From an uncultured beta proteobacterium (GTDB taxonomy: Bacteria > Pseudomonadota > Gammaproteobacteria > Burkholderiales > Burkholderiaceae_B), in assembly GCA_903821335.1 (NCBI GenBank), contig CAIJKV010000181.1, positions 1-64,000 of the forward strand: 64,000 nucleotides of DNA. Direction: 5' to 3'. Below, in pieces: positions 30,368-42,516 of this stretch. A model generated the notes under the pieces. That model was not told where the DNA came from, ran no database searches, and saw only the letters and a program-made list of their open reading frames with translations. The first letter of the stretch is position 1. Every line of letters begins with the position of its first letter. Both the position numbers and the translations under genes were made by a program.

Positions 30368-30787
30368 ATGCACACAGCGTTCCATGTCCCAGATTCCGAA
30401 GTTGAGGTAACCGCCGTCCGTGCGCAGGGCGCGGGGGGTCAGAACGTCAATAAGGTATCGAGCGCCATTCATCTGCGATTCAACATCCCGGGCTCGTCCA
30501 TGCCAGCCGATATGAAAATCAGGCTGCTGGCCCTGAAAGACGGACGCATCAGCCGCGACGGCATCCTGGTGATCAAAGCCCAGTCGCACCGCAGCCAGGA
30601 CATGAACCGGCTGGATGCCTTTGACCGTTTGCATGCACTGATCAAAAGCGTCGCGATTCCACCCAAAATCCGTCGGGCAACCAAGCCAACCTATGGTTCG
30701 AAGCAGCGCCGTCTTGAAGGCAAGAGCAAACACTCGGCCATCAAGGCCCTGCGCGGCAAGGCCTCCGACAGCAGGCAATCCTCATGA
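30368..30787 (+). CDS. arfB: Alternative ribosome-rescue factor ArfB (YaeJ-like peptidyl-tRNA hydrolase)
   Basis: VRAQGAGGQNVNKVSSAIHLRFNI GGQ motif; basic C-terminal tail; start at internal ATG 30368. Confidence 0.9.
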   Translation: MHTAFHVPDSEVEVTAVRAQGAGGQNVNKVSSAIHLRFNIPGSSMPADMKIRLLALKDGRISRDGILVIKAQSHRSQDMNRLDAFDRLHALIKSVAIPPKIRRATKPTYGSKQRRLEGKSKHSAIKALRGKASDSRQSS

Positions 30788-32100
30788 CGCCCGCAGTGCG
30801 GGCAAGTCTAGCCGTATGGATGGGCGCGACGATCCTGTTGTGGCCGGCCCTGTTCAACGGTTATCCGATTCTGTATAGCGATACCAGTGCTTTCCTGCTC
30901 CAGAGCCTCGCAGAGATGAAGGCCTGGGACAAACCACTGGTCTACGGACCCTGGCTGAGTGTCCTGCATTTGCGCGAGACACTATGGCTGCCTTGCCTGG
31001 CACAGGCAGTCATCGTGTCCTATGTTCTATGGATGATACGCAAAACCTTTGCGCGGCCGAGCGTGCTGCACCACATCGCGGTTTGCCTGGTGCTCGGTGG
31101 CCTGACCGCCACACCCTGGTTTGTCTCGCTGCTGATGCCCGACATCTTCGCGCCCCTGACCGTCCTGACACTATTTCTGCTGGCATTCTGCACCAGGTTG
31201 ACCCGTACCCACACCGTACTGCTCGTGATGATTGCGGCCCTGTCTATCGGGGTCCATCTCACGCATATCGTGATCGCGGCAGGCTGCCTGGTCGTCATCG
31301 CAGTCATGAAATCCGAACGACTCAAGCTTGCGCTGTTGCCACTGGCGATCGCGCTCGCTGCGCTCGTCGCGACAAATATCGTCTACTTCGAGAAAGTCGC
31401 GATCTCACCCTTCGGCTCTGTTTTCATGCTCGCAAGACTTGCCACTGACGGGCCCGCAGCAGAGGTACTCGCGCAGCGCTGTCCTGCGGCATCGTGGCAC
31501 ATGTGCCACTGGAAGGACACGCTACCCGACGACAGCGACGCCTTTATGTGGGCAGGCGACGGTCCGGTGTGGTCCCATCCGGGTGGACCCATCGGGCTGG
31601 CACCGGAAGCCTCGGAGATCGTCCTTGAAACCTTGCGCCACGCACCGGTCGCCGTTCTCCGGTCGGCCATTCGGAACACCTGGCGCCAGTTGTTCCTGGT
31701 TGAACTTGGTGACACCTTGCATCCAGACCACCTGCAACTGACGGTGGCCCAAACACTGGCTGACTATTTCCCAGCTGCAGAACTTGAGCAGTTCCAGAGC
31801 GCGTTGCAGGCCAACGACACGCTTGCCGCCGAGGCATCGCGACTTGCAAAAGTTCAGCTGGTAACAATGATTCTCGGCTGCCTCGCGACACTTGGCCTGC
31901 TGATACGCGCACTGATTGTCAGGGACGAACAATGCGCCGCTCTGGTCGTGATGGTCCTCGTGGGGCTTTGCATCAACGCCTTTGCGACAGGCGCGCTGTC
32001 CAAACCCCACCTGCGCTACCAGACGCGCATTGCCTGGCTGCTGGTCCTCGTGCCGCTGGTCGTGCCGCTATCCCGAAAGAAACACGACATCGGCAGCTAG
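30784..32100 (+). CDS. Polytopic membrane protein of unknown function (possible GT-C-like)
   Basis: 438 aa, many hydrophobic segments, NGYPILYSDTSAFLL near the first loop. Confidence 0.65.
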   Translation: MTPAVRASLAVWMGATILLWPALFNGYPILYSDTSAFLLQSLAEMKAWDKPLVYGPWLSVLHLRETLWLPCLAQAVIVSYVLWMIRKTFARPSVLHHIAVCLVLGGLTATPWFVSLLMPDIFAPLTVLTLFLLAFCTRLTRTHTVLLVMIAALSIGVHLTHIVIAAGCLVVIAVMKSERLKLALLPLAIALAALVATNIVYFEKVAISPFGSVFMLARLATDGPAAEVLAQRCPAASWHMCHWKDTLPDDSDAFMWAGDGPVWSHPGGPIGLAPEASEIVLETLRHAPVAVLRSAIRNTWRQLFLVELGDTLHPDHLQLTVAQTLADYFPAAELEQFQSALQANDTLAAEASRLAKVQLVTMILGCLATLGLLIRALIVRDEQCAALVVMVLVGLCINAFATGALSKPHLRYQTRIAWLLVLVPLVVPLSRKKHDIGS

Positions 32101-32945
32101 TTCCCCATGATCGCCAGCAAATCCCAGTGACCAATTTCGCATGAGGTCGCCGCCTTGCGCGCAACCAGCCAGCTATCGAGCACGTCTGTGGACACTTTAT
32201 CCGTTTGGGCGACGGCCGCCGCCGCACCCGACGACAGTGCCCTCATCAGTGCTTGCGTCGCATGTCCAAGTTTCCAGGGACTCTGGGCGAGGCTCAACTG
32301 AAAACCTCGTGCTGTCAGTGCGGTGTTCATCAACGCAATCGCAGCGGGTCCAGCCGCAGGACCGAACCCCTTGTCCGTCACCTGGTGCAGGTGAAAGGCA
32401 TCGAGCACGATCTGGTCTGCCCGATGAGGTGGCATCCAACGTTCGACACCGTCATAGGTCAACACTGTGTAGAGCGGTGCCTGCAACGCATTGCAAAACC
32501 GGGCGATCCAGTCCGGCGAAACCAGGTCGAAAAATGCGGCTGCAGTCACCAAGTCCCACGGGTCGGCAAGCACCTCTTCGATACCGGCGGCCAGGTCACG
32601 GCGTGCAAACGTAATGTCGATATATTTGCCACTTTTTTCGATTGCCAGTCCGTCACCATCGCAGGACACCACATCAGCCCAGGCGCTGAGCGTTGCGCGC
32701 GCCTGGCTTAATAGTGCTGCGTCATAGTCTACGAGCGTCCAGTGCTGACGTTGTGGCAAAAAGGCTGCCAGCGCCCGCAGGTTGGATCCCGTCCCACAAC
32801 CCAGATCCAGTATGCGCACCCGTTCGCCATTGAGACGCGAGGTGGCGCGCAGCAAGTCCGACATCTGGTCGCGCAGCACCACATTGCGCGCACGATGATC
32901 CGCCGGTTCACGCAAAGCCAGCCATTCAGCCGAAAAACCACTCAT
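32097..32945 (-). CDS. Class I SAM-dependent methyltransferase
   Basis: [22 protein letters not shown]...[14 protein letters not shown]. Confidence 0.88.
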
Positions 32946-34738
32946 GTATATTTATTCCTCACGGATTGATTGTCTGGAGCCGTCACACTGTCACCCAGGA
33001 ACTGCTCTTTGGCGAGCTGAGTAAAATGGCCTCCTGCGCTGTACAACTCAGAAAAAGTGCCGGCCTCAACAATTTTTCCATTGTCAAACACCAATATCTG
33101 CTTGGCGCGGCGAATCGTCGCCAGTCGATGCGCGATGACCAGCGTCGTTCGGTTTCTTGTGACTTCATCAAGCGCCCCCAGCAGCCTGGACTCAGTACCG
33201 CCGTCGAGCGCGCTGGTCGCCTCATCCAGAATCAGGATAGGCGGATTTTTCAAAATGACTCGCGCGATCGACAGGCGCTGACGTTCGCCACCAGACAACG
33301 CGCGCCCCCGCTCGCCGATATTGGCCTCAAAGCCGTCTGGATTGCGTTCAATAAAGTCCAGCGCCTGCGCGCGCACTGCGGCGTCGCGAATCTGTTCCTC
33401 GGTGGCATTGGGATCGCCGATCCGAAGATTCTCAACAATCGAACGATTAAACAGCAACGACTCTTGGAATACCACGCCAATATTGCGGCGCAGCGCTGTC
33501 AACTGCAGGTCACGAATGTCGCGACCATCGATGGTGATGGTGCCCGACTGTGGGTCAAAGGCCCGATATAGCAACGCGAGCGCCGTGGACTTGCCCGCGC
33601 CCGAGGCACCCACCAGGGCGACTGTCTCGCCGGGACGAACCGTAAAGCTGATCCCATCCACTGCAGGATGCCCGGTGTCATAGGAAAACATGACATTGTT
33701 GAACGTGACGTCACCACGCAGCCGTCCGGGATCCTGAGCATCTGCCCGCTCGTGAATGGCAGACACCGTGTCGAAGACTTCGAAGAAATCCCGCAGCCTT
33801 GGAGCATCCATGGCCAGGCGGTTTGAAAAACTGACCGCTTGCTCAAGTCGACTGATGACGAGTCCGGCAAACACCGTAAAGGTCACAATCTCGCCTATCG
33901 AAATCAGGTCATGGACATACAACCAGATTCCCGATAAGACAATGCATAAAATCGTGAGTGTCGTGGCCGACCGCGTCAGGACTGTGACGACCGCCCACCA
34001 AGACAGCACCGGAAACTGCGCCCCGAGCAGGCGTTGACTGATCGCCCCGAGCGCCCTGACCTCATCCTCGACGCGGGCAAAACTCTGGACCAGTGCAACG
34101 TTGCCCAGAGCATCGGCCGTGTGTTCGGCCAGATCGGAATGGTGCCCCTCTACCTGAGCCTGCAGTACGTGCGTTTTACGCAACACGAAATTCGTCAGCA
34201 CGACAAAGACTACGCACAGGATGATCAACAGAATTGCCAGGCGCCAATTAATGTAGATAGCCGTCGGAATCAATACGAACAGGGCGACGAAGGCAGCAAG
34301 GTGATCTCGAAAAAAACCTAGCCAGAGGGCCCACAAGGCATCGGTTCCCTGCAGCATGATTTTCATCAAACGTCCTGAATGCATATCGGCGTGATGGGAC
34401 GCTGGAAGCTGTAGGACGTGTTCGAAATAGTTTTTCAGGACCACGTGGCGCCTGCGATGAGCCAGGCGATCCGCATGCAGCGCGATCAGGGTTGCGCAAA
34501 GAATGGTAAATAGCCCGAAACCCATCCAGGCGATCAAATAGGGCCACGCCCGCGCCCAGATCGCGGAGCGGTCGTGAGCGGCGGCTCCGGTCAGCGTGTC
34601 GATAATCAGTCCGAACAGCACTGGCTCTGCAAACTGCGCCATCACCAGCGCCACGTTGCCCAGGGCAAGCAACCACGCCAGCCGCGCATCAGACCCCAAC
34701 TGTTGCAGCACCCTTCCATAGAGGCGAAAAAAACTCAT
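32942..34738 (-). CDS. ABC transporter permease/ATP-binding fusion, beta-glucan exporter (NdvA/ChvA)-like
   Basis: [13 protein letters not shown]...[67 protein letters not shown]. Confidence 0.85.
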
Positions 34739-34768
34739 GCGGCGCAGCCTTCGATGCAGTGCATCATG

Positions 34769-36520
34769 TCAGCGCTCACGCTGTCGCGCGAACGACGCAC
34801 GCATCGCGAATACCGGGAGCTGCAACGCGCGCAACTCGGCGGGCGGGGTGATTTCTTCGGGCAGGCTTGCGATATGTGCACGAATAAAGAACCGTGCTAC
34901 CGAGGGCCACGAGGTCACGACTGCAAGCGGGACCGCCATCACGAACCCCCCCAGGAAAAATATCGCGTATGGAATGACCAGCGGTGCGCGAACAGCCAGC
35001 GAACCCAGCAAGACAGTCCCAAGCAGCAAGTGCGGCCAAAAGACTCCAAGCGCCTGTCCCCACCCAACCGTGTGATCATCCCGTGTCTGGCTTGACCATC
35101 CTTGAGTGCGACCGAAAAGCAACTGCGACAAAAAAATGGCTTGTGACAGCCACATGATCGGACAGATCAGAATTGAGAAAACAGTCTCGATAAAAAAGCT
35201 CAGCGAAAAAAGTGCTCCGCCACCGAATTGACGACGTTGCACGGGCCGCACCAACACGTCGACTGCACTTGCAATCTTGGGAAGGAACATCATCACCAGT
35301 ACTACGACAACAAGCACACGACCCCAAACCGGGTCGATCACGTGCGCCTCCTGCGGCGCTAGCACAACCATCGCAGTCCCAAGCACCAGCATGCCAACCC
35401 AGGCAGGCGAACCAATGAACATCATGATTGCCAATAATAATTGCACGCGACTCGTGGGCTTGAGCCCTGGCATGCCCAATAACCGCAGGTACTGCATGTT
35501 GCCCTCGCACCAGCGCAAGTCACGCCTGACGAAATCAAGCATCGTGGGCGGGTTTTCTTCCCAGCTCTGGTCTTCGCGTGGCAACACCCTGACCTCGTAG
35601 CCACCGCGGCGCATCAATACAGCTTCGACCTGGTCATGGCTGAGAATGTGCAAGTTAGACGAACCGTCCGCAGACAAGGTGGGCAACTCGCAGTGCTGCA
35701 TAAATGCGTCAAGCCTTAAGACCGCATTGTGGCCCCAGTACGGGCCGCAATCACCCTGCCACCAGGCACTGCCCATCGTGTAGGAACGCATCCCCAGGCG
35801 CATGCCAAACTGGAAGATACGCGCGAACGCGCTCGTCGAGGGCATGGCCACCACCAGTCCCTGCAGAATGCCAATCGACGGATTGCCCTGCATGATGCGA
35901 ATCAGGCGCAACATGGCTGGCGGGGTCATGAAACTATCTGCATCCAGCACAATTGCAAAATCATGCAGGTCACCCCACTGCCTGCAGAAGTCCTCGATGT
36001 TTCCGGCCTTGTAGCCGGCGTTCGCAGTGCGACAACGATAAGTCAGTGCCAGGCGCTGCTCCCAGCGCGACGCCAACTCGGCAAAACAGACCTGCTCCTC
36101 GGTCGCAATCCTGGCGTCATTTGTATCGCTGAGAACATAGACATGGAACCTGTCGGCTGCGCCCGTTTGCGCAAGTCCCGACAGCGTTAATTCAAGATTG
36201 CGTAATATTCTGCGCGGAGACTCGTTTCGGATACACAGCAAAATCGCGGTTGAAGCGGTGATCGGGGCGTCTGGCGCGACGCCACACGCCTGCGGCAGGA
36301 CCACCCCCACCGGATCGGCGGAAAAACTCATGATCAGGAAACCAATCGTGGCGTTCCAGAAGCCGACCACCAACCATGGCAAGGTGATACCAAAGAGCAC
36401 CAGCATCACCACATCGACGGCATCCAGGCCGTCGACATCGAGCGCACGAACCATCATCGCCAGCATGCCGGCTATTGTCACCAGGACAAGCGTCGCGAAA
36501 AATAGTCTGTGGCGGGTCAT
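34769..36520 (-). CDS. Glucans biosynthesis glucosyltransferase (OpgH/MdoH-like)
   Basis: YKAGNIEDFCRQWG...FAIVLDADSFM...GDCGPYWGHNAVLRLDAF...HDQVEAVLMRRGGYEVRVLPREDQSWEENPPTMLDFVRRDLRWCEGNMQYL. Confidence 0.88.
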   Translation of the reverse strand: MTRHRLFFATLVLVTIAGMLAMMVRALDVDGLDAVDVVMLVLFGITLPWLVVGFWNATIGFLIMSFSADPVGVVLPQACGVAPDAPITASTAILLCIRNESPRRILRNLELTLSGLAQTGAADRFHVYVLSDTNDARIATEEQVCFAELASRWEQRLALTYRCRTANAGYKAGNIEDFCRQWGDLHDFAIVLDADSFMTPPAMLRLIRIMQGNPSIGILQGLVVAMPSTSAFARIFQFGMRLGMRSYTMGSAWWQGDCGPYWGHNAVLRLDAFMQHCELPTLSADGSSNLHILSHDQVEAVLMRRGGYEVRVLPREDQSWEENPPTMLDFVRRDLRWCEGNMQYLRLLGMPGLKPTSRVQLLLAIMMFIGSPAWVGMLVLGTAMVVLAPQEAHVIDPVWGRVLVVVVLVMMFLPKIASAVDVLVRPVQRRQFGGGALFSLSFFIETVFSILICPIMWLSQAIFLSQLLFGRTQGWSSQTRDDHTVGWGQALGVFWPHLLLGTVLLGSLAVRAPLVIPYAIFFLGGFVMAVPLAVVTSWPSVARFFIRAHIASLPEEITPPAELRALQLPVFAMRASFARQRER

Positions 36521-36649
36521 CGTTTGAGACTTGGGAAGGGAACGATCGATTTCCAGGAAGCTGACCTTTCTGTCACTTATAATTCACGCTCGGTGCGAGC
36601 AGTATATGACACCAATATCTGCCCGATAAACCCACGTCAGGAATCGACC

Positions 36650-37660
36650 GTGACAACTAGCCAGACCCATGACCTGGCGCGTGCACTCTGGTACACAGCG
36701 TGCGGCCAGGCAGAGATCCGCCAGGAAACACTCGAGTCCCCCGCAGCAGATGAACTTCGTGTGCGTGCGGTCTTCGGTGCACTCAGCCGAGGCACGGAAT
36801 CACTCATTTTTTCGGACCGCGTGCCACCCCAGGAATTTGACCGGATGCGCGCGCCCTTCATGGGCGGTGCATTCCCCTTCCCCGTCAAATATGGCTACGC
36901 GACCGTCGGGCGCATTCAAGCAGGGCCCGAGGCTTTGCTGGGCCGCATGGTGTTCACCCTCTATCCTCACCAGACCTTATTCAATATCAAAGCAGCTTCT
37001 GTCGTCCTGGTGCCCGAGGGTATTCCTCCCGCGCGGGCGGTGCTCGCGGCCAACATGGAGACCGCGCTCAATGCTGTCTGGAACGCGGCACCCGGCCCTG
37101 CCGACCGCATCGCCATTGTTGGCGGAGGTGTCGTAGGGCTGCTGGTCGCATTTCTTTGTGGACAACTGCCCGGGGCGCAGGTCACGCTCGTTGACATCAA
37201 TCCGGCACGAGCCGCTATTGCCCAGGCACTGGGTGTGGCTTTTGCCACGCCAGATCAGGCACCGCATGAATGCGACATTGTGGTGCATGCAAGTGGCGCG
37301 GCTGCCGGCCTCGATACCGCCATCGCACTCGCTGGGGACGAGGCGACAATTCTTGAGTTGAGCTGGTACGGTGCCGGCAAAGTTGCCGTACCACTAGGCG
37401 GCGCTTTTCACAGCCGCGAGTTGCGACTGATCTCGAGCCAGGTCGGTCATGTCGCGCGCTCGCACCGGCCGCGCTGGACCCACGCACGGCGACTGTCAGC
37501 CGCCATTGGCCTGCTGGCCGACCCGCGCCTGGATGCCCTGCTGGCTCCAGCCGTCGCGTTCAACGATTTGCCAGCGCGCCTTCCCGCCATTCTAAATTCG
37601 TCAAGCGGCATACTGTGCCAGCTGATCGACTATTCATTCGCTGGCGCATCAACTTATTGA
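36650..37660 (+). CDS. MDR-superfamily (zinc-type alcohol-dehydrogenase-like) oxidoreductase lacking the usual zinc motif
   Basis: GTG start; FGALSRGTESLIF, VKYGYATVG, IAIVGGGVVGLLVAFLCGQLPGAQVTLVDINPAR Rossmann fold. Confidence 0.8.
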   Translation: MTTSQTHDLARALWYTACGQAEIRQETLESPAADELRVRAVFGALSRGTESLIFSDRVPPQEFDRMRAPFMGGAFPFPVKYGYATVGRIQAGPEALLGRMVFTLYPHQTLFNIKAASVVLVPEGIPPARAVLAANMETALNAVWNAAPGPADRIAIVGGGVVGLLVAFLCGQLPGAQVTLVDINPARAAIAQALGVAFATPDQAPHECDIVVHASGAAAGLDTAIALAGDEATILELSWYGAGKVAVPLGGAFHSRELRLISSQVGHVARSHRPRWTHARRLSAAIGLLADPRLDALLAPAVAFNDLPARLPAILNSSSGILCQLIDYSFAGASTY

Positions 37661-37703
37661 CGCAGCGACCGATTACCGCACACACCAGTCCCAGGGAGTT
37701 TCA

Positions 37704-38105
37704 ATGTTTACTGTCGAAGTCCGCGATCACATCATGATTGCCCACTCTTTTCGCGGGGCAGTGTTCGGCCCGGCCCAGGCCCTGCATGGCGCCACCTTTG
37801 TCGTCGACGCCGCGTTCATGTCCGAACAACTCGACAGCAACGGCATCGTGATTGATATCGGGTGCGCGCTCGATATCCTGAAAGCCACGCTGGCACCCCT
37901 GAACTATTGCAACCTTGATGAACTCCCCCAATTCAAGGGCGTCAATACCACGACGGAATTTTTGACCAAGTACATTTTTGATTGCCTGGCCGACGCGGCG
38001 CGCAAGGATCAACTCGGTCGTAATGGCCGCGAACTGAGCGCCATACGCGTGACACTTGGTGAATCACACATCGCACGCGCCTGGTACGAAGCAGCGATAT
38101 GGTGA
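37704..38105 (+). CDS. Divergent 6-pyruvoyl-tetrahydropterin synthase / QueD-family protein
   Basis: HIMIAHSFRGAVFGPAQALHGATFVVDAAF...GIVIDIGCALDILK...NTTTEFLTKYIFDCL...VTLGESHIARAWYEA; overall PTPS layout with substituted catalytic motifs. Confidence 0.78.
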   Translation: MFTVEVRDHIMIAHSFRGAVFGPAQALHGATFVVDAAFMSEQLDSNGIVIDIGCALDILKATLAPLNYCNLDELPQFKGVNTTTEFLTKYIFDCLADAARKDQLGRNGRELSAIRVTLGESHIARAWYEAAIW

Positions 38106-39163
38106 AACAGGTCACGTTCGTCGTCCCGGGCGACCTTGCCACACTGACAGGTGGCTATGGCTATGACCGCAGCATTATCGCGGGTCTAGAGCACCTGGGC
38201 TGGCAAGTCGATCTCGTCAACCCAGGAGACGGCTTTCCCTGGCCAAGCACCGACACCCTTCGCGACGCGCATGCAAGCCTGCTGGCGATGGCGCCAGGAT
38301 GTCCCGTCATCATGGACGGACTCGCGCTGGGCGTCATGCCCGAGTCGGCTGCTCAACTCAAGTGCGACCACCCACTGATCGCGCTGGTCCATCACCCTCT
38401 GGCGATGGAGTCCGGACTGACCGGCGAGCAATCGCGCGCGCTTCATGCCAGCGAGCATCGTGCCCTCGAACAGGCTGACCATATCGTCGTCACCAGCCCT
38501 GCCACGGCACAGTGCCTGCGCGCGGACTTTGGTGTGGCGCCCGACCGTCTCACGGTAATTTGCCCTGGAACCCAGCCAGCACGTGCATCGACCGGGTCGA
38601 CGGATGGTGTGGTACGACTGGTATCGGTCGGCTCTATCGTGCCACGCAAGGGGTTTGATGTGCTGATCGCGGCCCTGGCAACCATGGTCGACTTACCCTG
38701 GATACTCGCTATTGCTGGGGATGAAACCCGTGACCCCGTCACTGCGCGGCAACTGCAGGCTGACATCGACCGCTTTCACCTGCGCAGCAAGATCAACCTG
38801 TGCGGCAGCTTGCAACCCGACAAACTCGAGGACCTCTACGCGGGTGCCGATGTCTTCGTGCTGGCCTCGCGCTATGAAGGCTACGGGATGGCGTTTGCCG
38901 AGGCGATCGCCCATGGCCTGCCTGTGATCGGCACAACGGGCGGAGCCATTCCGGACACGGTTCCGCCACAAGCCGGGTTGCTCGCTGAACCGGGTGACAT
39001 TGTGACGCTGGCCCAGGCGCTCAGGCATCTCATTGAAAATCCGATGCAGCGACAACGCCTGGCAACCGGCGCACGCGAGGTCGCGCGCACCTTGCCGACC
39101 TGGACTGGCGCCGCAAATTTATTTGCCGCAGTTGTTCAAAAAACAACGGATAGCCGCGCATGA
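38099..39163 (+). CDS. GT4-family glycosyltransferase, translationally coupled to the PTPS-like gene
   Basis: LVSVGSIVPRKGFDVLIAAL...FVLASRYEGYGMAFAEAIAHGLPVIGTTGGAIPD; ATG overlaps the upstream TGA. Confidence 0.88.
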   Translation: MVKQVTFVVPGDLATLTGGYGYDRSIIAGLEHLGWQVDLVNPGDGFPWPSTDTLRDAHASLLAMAPGCPVIMDGLALGVMPESAAQLKCDHPLIALVHHPLAMESGLTGEQSRALHASEHRALEQADHIVVTSPATAQCLRADFGVAPDRLTVICPGTQPARASTGSTDGVVRLVSVGSIVPRKGFDVLIAALATMVDLPWILAIAGDETRDPVTARQLQADIDRFHLRSKINLCGSLQPDKLEDLYAGADVFVLASRYEGYGMAFAEAIAHGLPVIGTTGGAIPDTVPPQAGLLAEPGDIVTLAQALRHLIENPMQRQRLATGAREVARTLPTWTGAANLFAAVVQKTTDSRA

Positions 39164-39199
39164 GACTGACAGTCTGACCGACCTGCGCGGCCACGCACG

Positions 39200-40024
39200 C
39201 TAGAGATCAACGGGGATACGAATCGCAGACAAGTCGCAATCGAAGAGCACATCGCCTTCAAGCAAATGTGTATGGACACAGGGCCGAATTGCCTCGTCCA
39301 GTCGGTCAATCGCTGGCAGCTCAAAACCGGCACGGCCCGAACCGAGGATGACGGGTGCCACAATGACATGGATACGATCCAGGCACCCCGCGCGCATAAA
39401 TCTCGACACCGTTTCTGCGCCGCCCTCGATCAGTATCCGTTTCATGCCACGGCTCGACAGTGCCGACAAAATATCGGCAGGGGCGATATGTCCGTTAAGG
39501 GTGGGCAGCACGACAACCTCGACACCCGTTGGCACAGTGCATCGGGTTCCGGGTGTCGTGATGACGATACGCCGCACCCCATCATCGAGAAAAACCTTAG
39601 CGTCGACCGACAGCCTTCCGCGCGGATCGATCACCACGCGTGCCGGGTGGGATCCGGCGACCAGTCGTACCGTCAGCAACGGATCATCAGCCAACGCAGT
39701 CCCTACGCCAACGACGACCGCGTCCACCAGAGCACGCAACCGATGCAAATGTGCGAGTCCGGCTGGACCGTTGATATATTTTGAATGCCCTGTCGGCGTG
39801 GCGATACGCCCATCCAGGGACTGGCCCAATTGCCCCACCACCACCATTGCGTCCTTGCCTGCCGAACGCAATGGCCCGAAAACACCACTCCATTCGTGGG
39901 GTAATGGCAACGATTCCTGATCAAAAGCCCGTAGAAATTCCGTCCAACCGTCATCGGGAGTCGGACCGCTGAGAGTCTCGCCCATCATGGAAGCGTCAGG
40001 CAAAATATCTGGCTTGATGAGCAT
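39200..40024 (-). CDS. RibD C-terminal (pyrimidine reductase / DHFR-fold) protein without a deaminase domain
   Basis: GQLGQSLDGRIATPTGHSKYI...LRALVDAVVVGVGTALADDPLLTVR...RILIEGGAETVSRFMRAGCLDRIHVIVAPVILGSGRAGF; no HAE/PCxxxG deaminase motifs. Confidence 0.87.
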   Translation of the reverse strand: MLIKPDILPDASMMGETLSGPTPDDGWTEFLRAFDQESLPLPHEWSGVFGPLRSAGKDAMVVVGQLGQSLDGRIATPTGHSKYINGPAGLAHLHRLRALVDAVVVGVGTALADDPLLTVRLVAGSHPARVVIDPRGRLSVDAKVFLDDGVRRIVITTPGTRCTVPTGVEVVVLPTLNGHIAPADILSALSSRGMKRILIEGGAETVSRFMRAGCLDRIHVIVAPVILGSGRAGFELPAIDRLDEAIRPCVHTHLLEGDVLFDCDLSAIRIPVDL

Positions 40025-40091
40025 GGCTGAATTTTTTCAGGGAAAATGTAGGGTTATTGAACAATCGCTTCTGAACTTTGTTACATAATAT

Positions 40092-40120
40092 ACATGTTGC
40101 ACTGCAGTGTGGCTGCATGT
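40092..40120. promoter_or_regulatory. Nested dyad ACATG-N3-CACTGCAGTG-N6-CATGT, candidate operator
   Basis: Perfect 10-bp palindrome at 40100-40109 flanked by ACATG/CATGT arms, between divergent RibD_C-like and RibA-like genes. Confidence 0.45.
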
Positions 40121-40181
40121 TTTGATACTACCGTATGCAGCGCACGTCGACCTTATTCAACTTTTTTAAAGCATTTATCAA

Positions 40182-41300
40182 ATGTCTGTGCAATCTGACG
40201 TAGGCGTCCAACAGCGGATCATTGAGTGTCATGCACTGCGGGCAGTTGACCGTGCCGTCGTTGAACTGCGTCGTGGCGCAGCTGTTTTGGTCCAGGAAGG
40301 CTCTCAACGTCTCCTGGTCCTGGCTGCCGAAGCCGTCACGCAACACGCCATCGACGACATGAGGCAGGCGAGCGATCAGTGCCCGCACATCGTCGTGACA
40401 GGGCAGCGCGCCCGTGTCCTCGGTCTGGCGGATAGCCCTGCGCAGGCTTGCGCGATCACCCGCGCCGGCGGTATTGACCTGGCAACGACTGAGTTTCTTG
40501 CCGACCCTTGCGTCGATGGCCCACAGCCTTCTGGTTATAAAGGCCTTGAGATCACATCCGCCACCAAACTCGAGCAAGCCTGCCTGACACTGATGAAGCT
40601 CGGCAGACTGCTTCCCGCAGCCGTTGTGGCCCAAGCCCAGCCTGTGGTCGAACCCGCTGACATCGTGCGGGTCGACGCGGGCGATATCGTGTCCTACCAA
40701 CAGACGGCAGCACTTGCCCTGCACATTGTCAGCGAGGCACGTGTTCCGCTCGAAAATGCCGAAAACACCCGCGTCGTGGCCTTTCGTCCGGCTGATGGCG
40801 GTATTGAACACCTGGCAATCGTCGTGGGTGACATTGACGCCGACACGCCGGTACTCACACGGATCCACTCTGAGTGCTTTACAGGCGACCTTCTGGGCTC
40901 GTTGCGCTGCGACTGCGGCAGCCAGCTGCGTGGCGCGATTGCTGAAATGGCCCGTGCGGGCAGCGGCATCGTTCTGTATCTCGCGCAGGAAGGCCGGGGC
41001 ATCGGACTGATCAACAAGTTGCGCGCCTACCAGTTGCAAGACGCGGGTTTTGACACGGTCGATGCGAACCTTCAACTCGGTTTTGACGAGGACGAACGTG
41101 TCTATTTGCCAGCGGCGCGCATGCTGCAGTTACTGGGTGTTCCCCGTGTGCGACTGATGACAAACAACCCGATCAAAGTTGGTGCTCTCACGCGCCACGG
41201 TGTCGAAGTGATCGAACGTGTGCCACACATTTTTCCGTCGAACATTCATAATCAGGGCTACCTGCACACAAAGGCCACCAAGGGCGGCCATTTGTTCTAG
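40182..41300 (+). CDS. GTP cyclohydrolase II with an N-terminal degenerate RibB (DHBP synthase)-like domain
   Basis: TRIHSECFTGDLLGSLRCDCGSQL...YLAQEGRGIGLINKLRAYQLQDAGFDTVDANLQLGF...LMTNNPIKVGALTRHGVEVIERVPH intact GCHII motifs; N-terminus lacks the DDEDRENEGDL-type motif. Confidence 0.9.
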   Translation: MSVQSDVGVQQRIIECHALRAVDRAVVELRRGAAVLVQEGSQRLLVLAAEAVTQHAIDDMRQASDQCPHIVVTGQRARVLGLADSPAQACAITRAGGIDLATTEFLADPCVDGPQPSGYKGLEITSATKLEQACLTLMKLGRLLPAAVVAQAQPVVEPADIVRVDAGDIVSYQQTAALALHIVSEARVPLENAENTRVVAFRPADGGIEHLAIVVGDIDADTPVLTRIHSECFTGDLLGSLRCDCGSQLRGAIAEMARAGSGIVLYLAQEGRGIGLINKLRAYQLQDAGFDTVDANLQLGFDEDERVYLPAARMLQLLGVPRVRLMTNNPIKVGALTRHGVEVIERVPHIFPSNIHNQGYLHTKATKGGHLF

Positions 41301-41319
41301 GCATAGGCTCGACCCCCAC

Positions 41320-42516
41320 TCAGACCACCATGCGCGTGCGCAAGTCGGCAATCTGAGCGTCTGTGTAGCCGAGATCGTGCAAGACCCCTTCAGTGTGCTC
41401 TCCCCGGGATGGCGTCACGCTACGGATATCGTCAGGCGTGCGTGAGAGCGCCACGGGTTGTCCGACCACCTGAATGTCACCGAGTTCCGGATGGCTGAGC
41501 GGCACGGCAATCCCGAGATGCTGGGTCTGGGGGTCTGCAAACACTTCGTCCATGGTGTAGATCGGCCCGCAGGCCACACTTGCCGCTTCAAATTTTCTGA
41601 TCCATTCATTGGTAGACTGCCCCGCAGTGATGGCAGACAACTCCGCATGCAACGCCACTCTATTGCGTGAACGCAACGGCCCCGTCTCATATTCCGCACG
41701 CGTCAGCAGGTACTCGGCATTCATCGCCTGACACAACCGTGTCCACATTTTTTGCGCACCGGCACCCGCAATATTGATGTGACCATCAGAGGTTGGAAAC
41801 ACCCCCGTTGGAATCGAGGTCGGATGATCGTTGCCCGACTGGACCGCAACCTCATGACCGATCAACCAGCGCGCCGCCTGAAAATCAAGCATCCCGATCA
41901 TCGACTCAAGCAACGAAGTCTTTACCCACTGACCCTCACCTGATTCCTCTCTTTCAAGCAGTGCTGTCAGGATTCCCAGCGCGCAATACAGACCGGAGGC
42001 GGAATCGGCGACCGCAATGCCTGCACGCACGGGACCCTGCCCTGGCAGCCCCGTGATCGCCATCAAACCGCCCATCCCCTGAACAATCTGATCGTAGCCG
42101 GGTCGTTTGGCGTAAGGCCCGTCCTGTCCAAATCCCGATACGCTGGCATAGACCAGCCTTGGATTCGTTTTGCGCAAGGTCTCGTAATCGATGCCCAGGC
42201 GATGCTTGACGTCCGGGCGAAAATTTTCGATGATGACATCGACTTGATCGGCCATTTTCCGAAAGATCTTGATGCCTTCGGGATCCTTCAGGTTCAGCGT
42301 CACGCTACGCTTATTGCGATGCAAATTCTGAAAGTCAGGCCCCAGGCGGGCGGCACCCGAGCCGTCGCCCGGCCCCAGCGCATCCGGGGTTTCGATCTTG
42401 ATCACATCCGCTCCCCAGTCCGCAAGCTGCCGAACGGCCGTGGGCCCGGAACGCAGGCGTGTCAGGTCAAGGACTTTGAACCGTGCTAGAGGGCCGCGTC
42501 GCTTGCTCGTGTTCAT
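41320..42516 (-). CDS. CaiB/BaiF-type family III CoA-transferase
   Basis: FKVLDLTRLRSGPTAVRQLADWGADVIKIETPD...IENFRPDVKHRLGIDYETL...KRPGYDQIVQGMGGLMAITG. Confidence 0.93.
   Translation of the reverse strand: MNTSKRRGPLARFKVLDLTRLRSGPTAVRQLADWGADVIKIETPDALGPGDGSGAARLGPDFQNLHRNKRSVTLNLKDPEGIKIFRKMADQVDVIIENFRPDVKHRLGIDYETLRKTNPRLVYASVSGFGQDGPYAKRPGYDQIVQGMGGLMAITGLPGQGPVRAGIAVADSASGLYCALGILTALLEREESGEGQWVKTSLLESMIGMLDFQAARWLIGHEVAVQSGNDHPTSIPTGVFPTSDGHINIAGAGAQKMWTRLCQAMNAEYLLTRAEYETGPLRSRNRVALHAELSAITAGQSTNEWIRKFEAASVACGPIYTMDEVFADPQTQHLGIAVPLSHPELGDIQVVGQPVALSRTPDDIRSVTPSRGEHTEGVLHDLGYTDAQIADLRTRMVV

Follow-up and report, generated by a model that had tools for sequence, protein, structure and literature searches.

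A candidate dedicated locus for a GTP-derived glycoconjugate in an uncultured betaproteobacterium

Described relatives of the locus

The locus investigated here lies within 64,000 nucleotides of DNA, referred to as the window, from an uncultured beta proteobacterium; the source genome is a draft assembly of 3.99 Mb in 408 contigs, with a completeness of 94.7%. It is a block of eight genes (window 32097-41300) that includes a GTP cyclohydrolase II (GCHII), a RibD-type reductase, a PTPS protein of subfamily IV (PTPS-IV), an MDR oxidoreductase, and a GT4 glycosyltransferase. With modest confidence, the block is believed to be devoted to the biosynthesis of a GTP-derived glycoconjugate.

Part of this gene association has been reported. 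In the 2017 AGeNNT study, cluster-node 62 holds PTPS proteins with the sequence FGPAQ, the signature of the PTPS-IV subfamily, and their neighbours are PF00925, labelled there as GTP cyclohydrolase I/FolE2, and PF01872 (PMC5445326). All three families are common to that node and the window. The account of the node is of a network node only, giving no product and making no mention of the MDR, GT4, methyltransferase (MT), MdoH-like, ABC, or CDP-alcohol transferase genes. In a literature search, no paper beyond AGeNNT was found that describes the cluster, and none that gives a product or the extended gene set. As far as that account of the node goes, the association of PTPS-IV, GCHII, and RibD is known since 2017 (PMC5445326), while the pathway and the extended gene set appear not to have been published. 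The preliminary description of this DNA, in which an undescribed pathway was proposed, is therefore upheld for the pathway but not for the gene association, nor is the PTPS-IV protein new to structural biology, the SCO6650 structure having been solved.

The window PTPS is an ortholog of this Streptomyces protein, SCO6650 (PDB 3d7j, E 5.5e-45), the PDB entry for which is still named 'uncharacterized protein'. Streptomyces clusters share MDR, PTPS, GT4, MT, and GCHII genes with the window. Their GCHII is short and lacks the RibB domain, and they also encode a creatininase and a CDP-alcohol transferase; in the window the GCHII is fused to a RibB-fold domain, and MdoH-like and ABC genes are present. 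The neighbours of S. coelicolor SCO6650, up to SCO6655, presumably represent the comparable Streptomyces locus, and SCO6655 reportedly forms a formylated pyrimidine.

Two other systems are related in part. The pteridine glycoside systems of cyanobacteria and Chlorobium (PMC5683033) have, like the window, a PTPS-fold protein and a glycosyltransferase, however in the window the catalytic and zinc residues of the PTPS are lost, GCHII and RibD are present, and no FolE or sepiapterin reductase is annotated in the clusters. From the riboflavin enzymes RibA and RibD and from MjaRED (2azn), the window retains the GCHII catalytic set and the likeness to diaminopyrimidine phosphate reductases. It differs from riboflavin RibD in the absence of a deaminase domain, in the placement of its RibD in a separate clade, and in linkage to MDR, PTPS-IV, GT4, and MT genes.

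The eight-gene block and its recurrence

Five open reading frames (ORFs) had previously been described between 36650 and 41300, and all five are present there with the domains assigned to them. The five-gene set stands, but not 36650 as its boundary, since the block starts at 32097. Three minus-strand genes upstream of the MDR gene, absent from the preliminary description, belong to it as well:

32097..32945, minus strand: class I SAM methyltransferase (MT); Pfam Methyltransf_25; ortholog of the MT found after GT4 in distant clusters
32942..34738, minus strand: NdvA/ChvA-type ABC exporter, a permease-ATPase fusion; NF010178, 847.7 bits (cut-off 733)
34769..36520, minus strand: MdoH/OpgH-like membrane GT2; NF003958, 531.5 bits (cut-off 419)
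36650..37660, plus strand: MDR oxidoreductase, BchC-like; TIGR01202, 49 bits; GTG start at 36650, with upstream start candidates at 36593 and 36509
37704..38105, plus strand: PTPS-IV (FGPAQ) T-fold protein; PF01242, 68.6 bits; ortholog of 3d7j
38099..39163, plus strand: GT4 glycosyltransferase (retaining GT-B); PF00534, 98 bits
39200..40024, minus strand: RibD_C-type reductase without a deaminase domain; PF01872, 140 bits
40182..41300, plus strand: GTP cyclohydrolase II (residues ~180-372) with an N-terminal RibB-fold domain; PF00925, 198.8 bits

The GTG at 36650 is close to the point at which homologues from the genus begin to align. The end of the MDR gene is 43 nt from the start of the PTPS gene, and the GT4 ATG at 38099 lies 7 nt inside the PTPS end (stop codon 38103-38105). 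No riboswitch was found in an Rfam scan of 31900-41500, and in a promoter and terminator scan of the locus the signals were not clearly above chance. A hydrophobic 438-aa ORF on the plus strand (30784-32100) overlaps the end of the MT gene by 4 nt; it has no Pfam match and is not conserved in other loci.

Within the family, the PTPS was found in 22 of 201 genomes, including 10 of the 11 members of the window genus that were sampled. The eight genes keep the same order in every fetched locus of sufficient length, both from the window genus and from g32, another genus in its family; a few short contigs break off within the block. A scan of the genome collection gave at least 584 PTPS relatives, and for 110 PTPS-IV loci the neighbours within 9 kb were sorted into families by all-against-all BLAST. 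GT4 is present in 101 of these loci (92%), MDR in 85%, MT in 87 (79%), the MdoH-like GT2 in 74 (67%), RibD in 73 (66%), GCHII in 46 (42%), and the NdvA-like ABC exporter in 24 (22%); the PTPS itself was scored in 89%, some having been dropped by the ORF filter. Less frequent are cytochrome b561 (25%), FkbM methyltransferase (23%), sulfatase-like (10%), CDP-alcohol phosphatidyltransferase (9%), flippase-like (8%), and creatininase (5%) genes. The clusters belong to alpha-, beta-, and gammaproteobacteria and to Actinomycetota, and annotated plasmid records from Methylosinus, Rhizobiaceae, Palleronia, Thiodictyon, Streptomyces, and Microbacterium carry the same core. Co-occurrence in other genomes, put forward earlier as the check on the locus, is found in the genus, in g32, and, to the extents just given, among the 110 loci across phyla. 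Synteny and recurrence bear out a conserved, dedicated gene set in which an enzyme that opens GTP and a ribityl-forming reductase lacking a deaminase domain are joined by a glycosyltransferase and a protein of the pterin fold.

An even sample of 399 Pseudomonadota genomes served as an independent control. PTPS-IV matches in it are bimodal, with 27 genomes at E <= 7.5e-58 and the next at 8.5e-15. Ten of the evenly drawn genomes were searched for both PTPS-IV and RibD_C genes; in eight the two are no more than 4 kb apart, and seven of these eight have a second RibD elsewhere.

None of the 110 loci combines the MdoH-like gene with a gene for a CDP-alcohol transferase, a sulfatase-like protein, or a flippase (Fisher p ~1e-5 to 1e-6, relatedness of the loci not being corrected for). 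This reads as two alternative membrane modules.

Solitary PTPS-IV genes are present on Streptomyces plasmids (L032:10001-10426 and L094:10001-10399), near cupin or MEKHLA-domain genes and away from other cluster genes.

Reductase, cyclohydrolase, and PTPS-IV proteins

The cluster RibD consists of the RibD_C domain alone. Its best PDB matches, 2azn and 6p8c, are archaeal-type 2,5-diamino-6-ribosylamino-pyrimidinone phosphate reductases. In a maximum-likelihood tree of 80 RibD_C domains, the 41 from cluster RibDs, representing alpha-, beta-, and gammaproteobacteria and Actinomycetota, all form one clade (support 100/100, branch 1.54), and housekeeping RibDs, including those of the window genus itself, fall outside it. 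One sequence inside the clade had been labelled canonical (L063). This 255-aa protein adjoins a cluster GCHII (genome G213, contig C431), therefore the label is at fault and not the tree.

Of 32 genomes of the genus, 27 encode a canonical RibD in addition. None was found in the source assembly, which may be due to an assembly gap, as the assembly is 94.7% complete. The idea that the cluster holds the sole RibD copy is thus discarded at genus level, though not for the source assembly. In one genome listed as 100% complete (G268, contig C6), the cluster RibD is the only RibD_C match and may therefore double for riboflavin there.

The final gene had been described as a divergent GCHII fused to a degenerate RibB-like domain, and here the N-terminal domain and the core have to be separated. 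The RibB fold of the N-terminal domain is supported by an AlphaFold model (pLDDT 90.7) and by Foldseek matches to RibB structures (E ~1e-7, probability 1.00); the RENEGD motif is present in the genome's own RibB and absent from the window GCHII and other cluster GCHIIs. The GCHII core, by contrast, is not degenerate. Its alignment to the E. coli RibA structure 2bz0 has an E-value of 4e-60, and C232, C243, C245, Y266, and QEGRG are invariant in cluster GCHIIs, so that the zinc cysteines and the catalytic Tyr/Arg stretch are retained. No complete cluster GCHII has lost the Tyr of the LYxxQEGR stretch, not even those beside creatininase, in which it had been expected beforehand to differ because of the link to formylated pyrimidine (FAPy); the residue thus does not separate enzymes that form FAPy from those that form the unformylated product.

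Exactly two GCHII-domain proteins, the RibB protein and the cluster GCHII, are present in 26 of the 32 genus genomes. The GCHII domain of the RibB protein has no zinc cysteines and is RibBX-like (six genomes checked), so that, among the GCHIIs found in the genus, the cluster enzyme alone has a zinc site. In the source genome, the RibBX-like RibB-GCHII fusion (L206:1919-3094, contig C286) has ribH and a NusB-like gene as neighbours. Genus member G086 has kept the GCHII (63% identity) at a locus without any other cluster gene; no PTPS-IV was found in this genome and its only RibD is the canonical one. Based on these zinc sites and this retention, the cluster GCHII is probably the only working GCHII of the window genus and serves as its riboflavin RibA too. 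The sole-copy explanation is in this case partly accepted. Gammaproteobacteria such as G271, G529, G535, and G617 have a separate monofunctional RibA with a zinc site in the same genome as the cluster GCHII, which argues that the cluster copy is dedicated there.

These observations bear on the suggestion that the locus is an accessory riboflavin or flavin module, for a secreted or modified flavin for example, and makes no pyrimidine or pteridine that is new. Both GCHII and RibD are enzymes of the riboflavin type, and the position of the cluster GCHII as the sole zinc-bearing copy of the genus, retained alone in G086, would fit such a module. It is nevertheless unlikely, given the lack of ribE, ribH, and a deaminase domain in the cluster, the canonical RibD elsewhere in most of the genus, and the separate deep clade of the cluster RibDs. 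Furthermore, PTPS-IV, MDR, and GT4 are not flavin enzymes.

The earlier claim that the cluster stands apart from the genes for queuosine and from most of those for riboflavin is borne out by the source genome. An operon of queC, a QueD-like PTPS gene, and queE is on contig C342 (genome G000, L071:3920-6352), and a lumazine synthase gene adjoins ribB on contig C286. Of the separate genes that were to be sought, those for queuosine and ribB-ribH were therefore recovered and the second RibD was not. The notion that the cluster holds the only copies of essential genes thus applies in part to GCHII in the genus, not to the PTPS, and not to RibD in most of the genus. A queuosine role for the cluster PTPS is rejected, with queC-queD-queE elsewhere and no CxxxHGH motif in this protein, as is a sole-copy explanation for it, canonical QueD being on C342. 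The C342 'QueD' is a single 364-aa protein of three fused PTPS domains, in which only the middle domain has CxxxHGH.

In PTPS and QueD enzymes, the catalytic Cys is found in CxxxHGH or CxxxxxHGH motifs (PMC5041015). The window PTPS has FGPAQ at residues 21-25, and both PTPS-IV neighbour families, PF00925 and PF01872, are beside it. Among 16 diverse members aligned, the set of three zinc His (H...HGH) is not retained, HGA standing in place of HGH with A30 invariant, and the catalytic Cys and the Asp-His pair are replaced, GPAQxLHGA and LNYxNLD being present instead. The pterin-anchoring Glu is retained, E120 being invariant in 16/16. From the loss of these residues, ordinary PTPS/QueD chemistry is unlikely, and the dihydroneopterin-type chemistry previously suggested for this protein is not supported. 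The SCO6650 structure paper reportedly describes a protein that lacks zinc, a catalytic triad, and PTPS activity but has residues suited to a pterin-like ligand; the alignment of the 16 members is in agreement.

A zinc-free PTPS also argues against a copy of the tetrahydrobiopterin-like pteridine glycoside route of cyanobacteria and Chlorobium, in which dihydroneopterin triphosphate would be processed by PTPS, a reductase (MDR replacing sepiapterin reductase), and a glycosyltransferase. The adjacency of a PTPS fold, an oxidoreductase, and GT4 in the cluster is as such a route would predict, and the tetrahydrobiopterin glucosyltransferase structure 9v0l is among the GT4 matches (E 7e-4). That match is, however, far weaker than the general GT4 match 6kih (6.7e-21). 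With no aligned PTPS-IV retaining the zinc His or the catalytic Cys, Asp, and His, FolE and sepiapterin reductase not annotated in the clusters (FolE elsewhere in the genome was not searched for), and GCHII and RibD left unexplained, this route is rather improbable.

The chemistry of GCHII and RibD yields the ribityl-pyrimidine precursor of FO, which counts towards a deazaflavin (FO/F420-like) pathway of the kind proposed for archaeal PTPS-IV. PTPS-IV has moreover been named an F420 enzyme, with unpublished work cited in support (PMC5041015). On the other side, CofH was above the cut-off in none of 25 PTPS-IV-bearing genomes and no radical SAM gene is annotated in the plasmid-borne clusters. 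A deazaflavin pathway is considered very improbable, being largely refuted for the PTPS-IV genomes tested.

Proposed pathway

In the pathway proposed here, GCHII would convert GTP to 2,5-diamino-6-ribosylamino-4(3H)-pyrimidinone 5'-phosphate (APy), and in the window genus the same enzyme probably also supplies riboflavin synthesis. The RibD_C reductase would reduce the ribosyl chain of APy to ribityl, with the 2-amino group staying in place because there is no deaminase domain. PTPS-IV may then grip the 2-amino-4-oxo edge through its conserved Glu and, zinc-free, act on or scaffold the pyrimidine or a derived pteridine. MDR could carry out a redox step on the side chain, MT would methylate, GT4 would attach a sugar, and the membrane module would extend, anchor, or export the product. 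This module would be the MdoH-like GT2 and NdvA-like exporter here, and a CDP-alcohol transferase, sulfatase-like protein, and flippase in other lineages. The GCHII and RibD reactions follow from knowledge of the families and from residue conservation; the PTPS-IV, MDR, MT, GT4, and membrane steps are suggested by gene context. What the sequences establish directly is the gene set, its synteny, the RibD clade, which residues are kept or lost, and the mutual exclusion of the two membrane modules. The reactions after APy formation, their order, and the product are inferred, a product that appears to be sugar-decorated and is probably exported.

The accessory enzymes give few pointers of their own. 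In an 87-sequence alignment of MDR, the SRGTE and YGY columns are invariant, and by inspection SRGTE and KYGY stand in place of the usual zinc alcohol dehydrogenase ligand motifs (Cys; GHE), suggesting loss of zinc. PDB searches with MDR and with GT4 gave no specific relative. The window MT matches the Methylosinus cluster MT (phmmer, 253 bits) and is predicted to have a generic class I fold (AlphaFold2 pLDDT 92.7); a structure search returned generic class I methyltransferases only, with no pointer to a substrate.

Several observations weigh against a single dedicated pathway. GCHII is absent from more than half of the 110 loci, some Rhodobacterales clusters have no GT4, and some Streptomyces carry PTPS-IV alone. 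As the sole zinc-bearing GCHII of the genus, the enzyme may be present here to meet a riboflavin need. The exclusivity test for the membrane modules takes no account of relatedness, and a separate glycan may be what the MdoH-like and ABC genes are for. Another explanation is that two loci overlap, one for glycan synthesis and export (MT, NdvA-like, MdoH-like, GT4) and the other a housekeeping ribA, with no common pathway. The MdoH-like and ABC genes are indeed akin to periplasmic glucan genes and the GCHII probably doubles as housekeeping RibA in the window genus, but RibD, PTPS, MDR, GT4, and MT recur together without MdoH in Actinomycetota and Rhizobiaceae, and the cluster RibDs are of single origin. 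An overlap of this kind is rather unlikely.

For the dedicated locus, a broader possibility is put forward more tentatively: that the clusters stand for a class of diaminopyrimidine or pteridine glycoconjugates derived from GTP that is widespread and has not been described. Its members would arise through a ribityl-diaminopyrimidine intermediate and a T-fold enzyme that, free of zinc, performs new chemistry, and would be completed by one or other of two interchangeable membrane modules. If so, about 7% of sampled Pseudomonadota genomes (27/399) and many Actinomycetota would carry an unrecognised branch of GTP/riboflavin-type metabolism. The genes of this branch are routinely labelled RibA/RibD, 'zinc-binding alcohol dehydrogenase', and, for queuosine, '6-carboxytetrahydropterin synthase', therefore many automatic annotations would require correction and PTPS-IV (3d7j) would gain a function. 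Clusters are present in culturable sequenced strains, for example Methylosinus trichosporium OB3b, Azorhizobium oxalatiphilum, and Xanthobacter autotrophicus, in which the proposal is directly testable.

In alphaproteobacterial clusters, a ~362-aa protein without a Pfam match (L164:4762-5850; 17 loci) is often encoded beyond MdoH or FkbM and is a possible candidate for a periplasmic partner.

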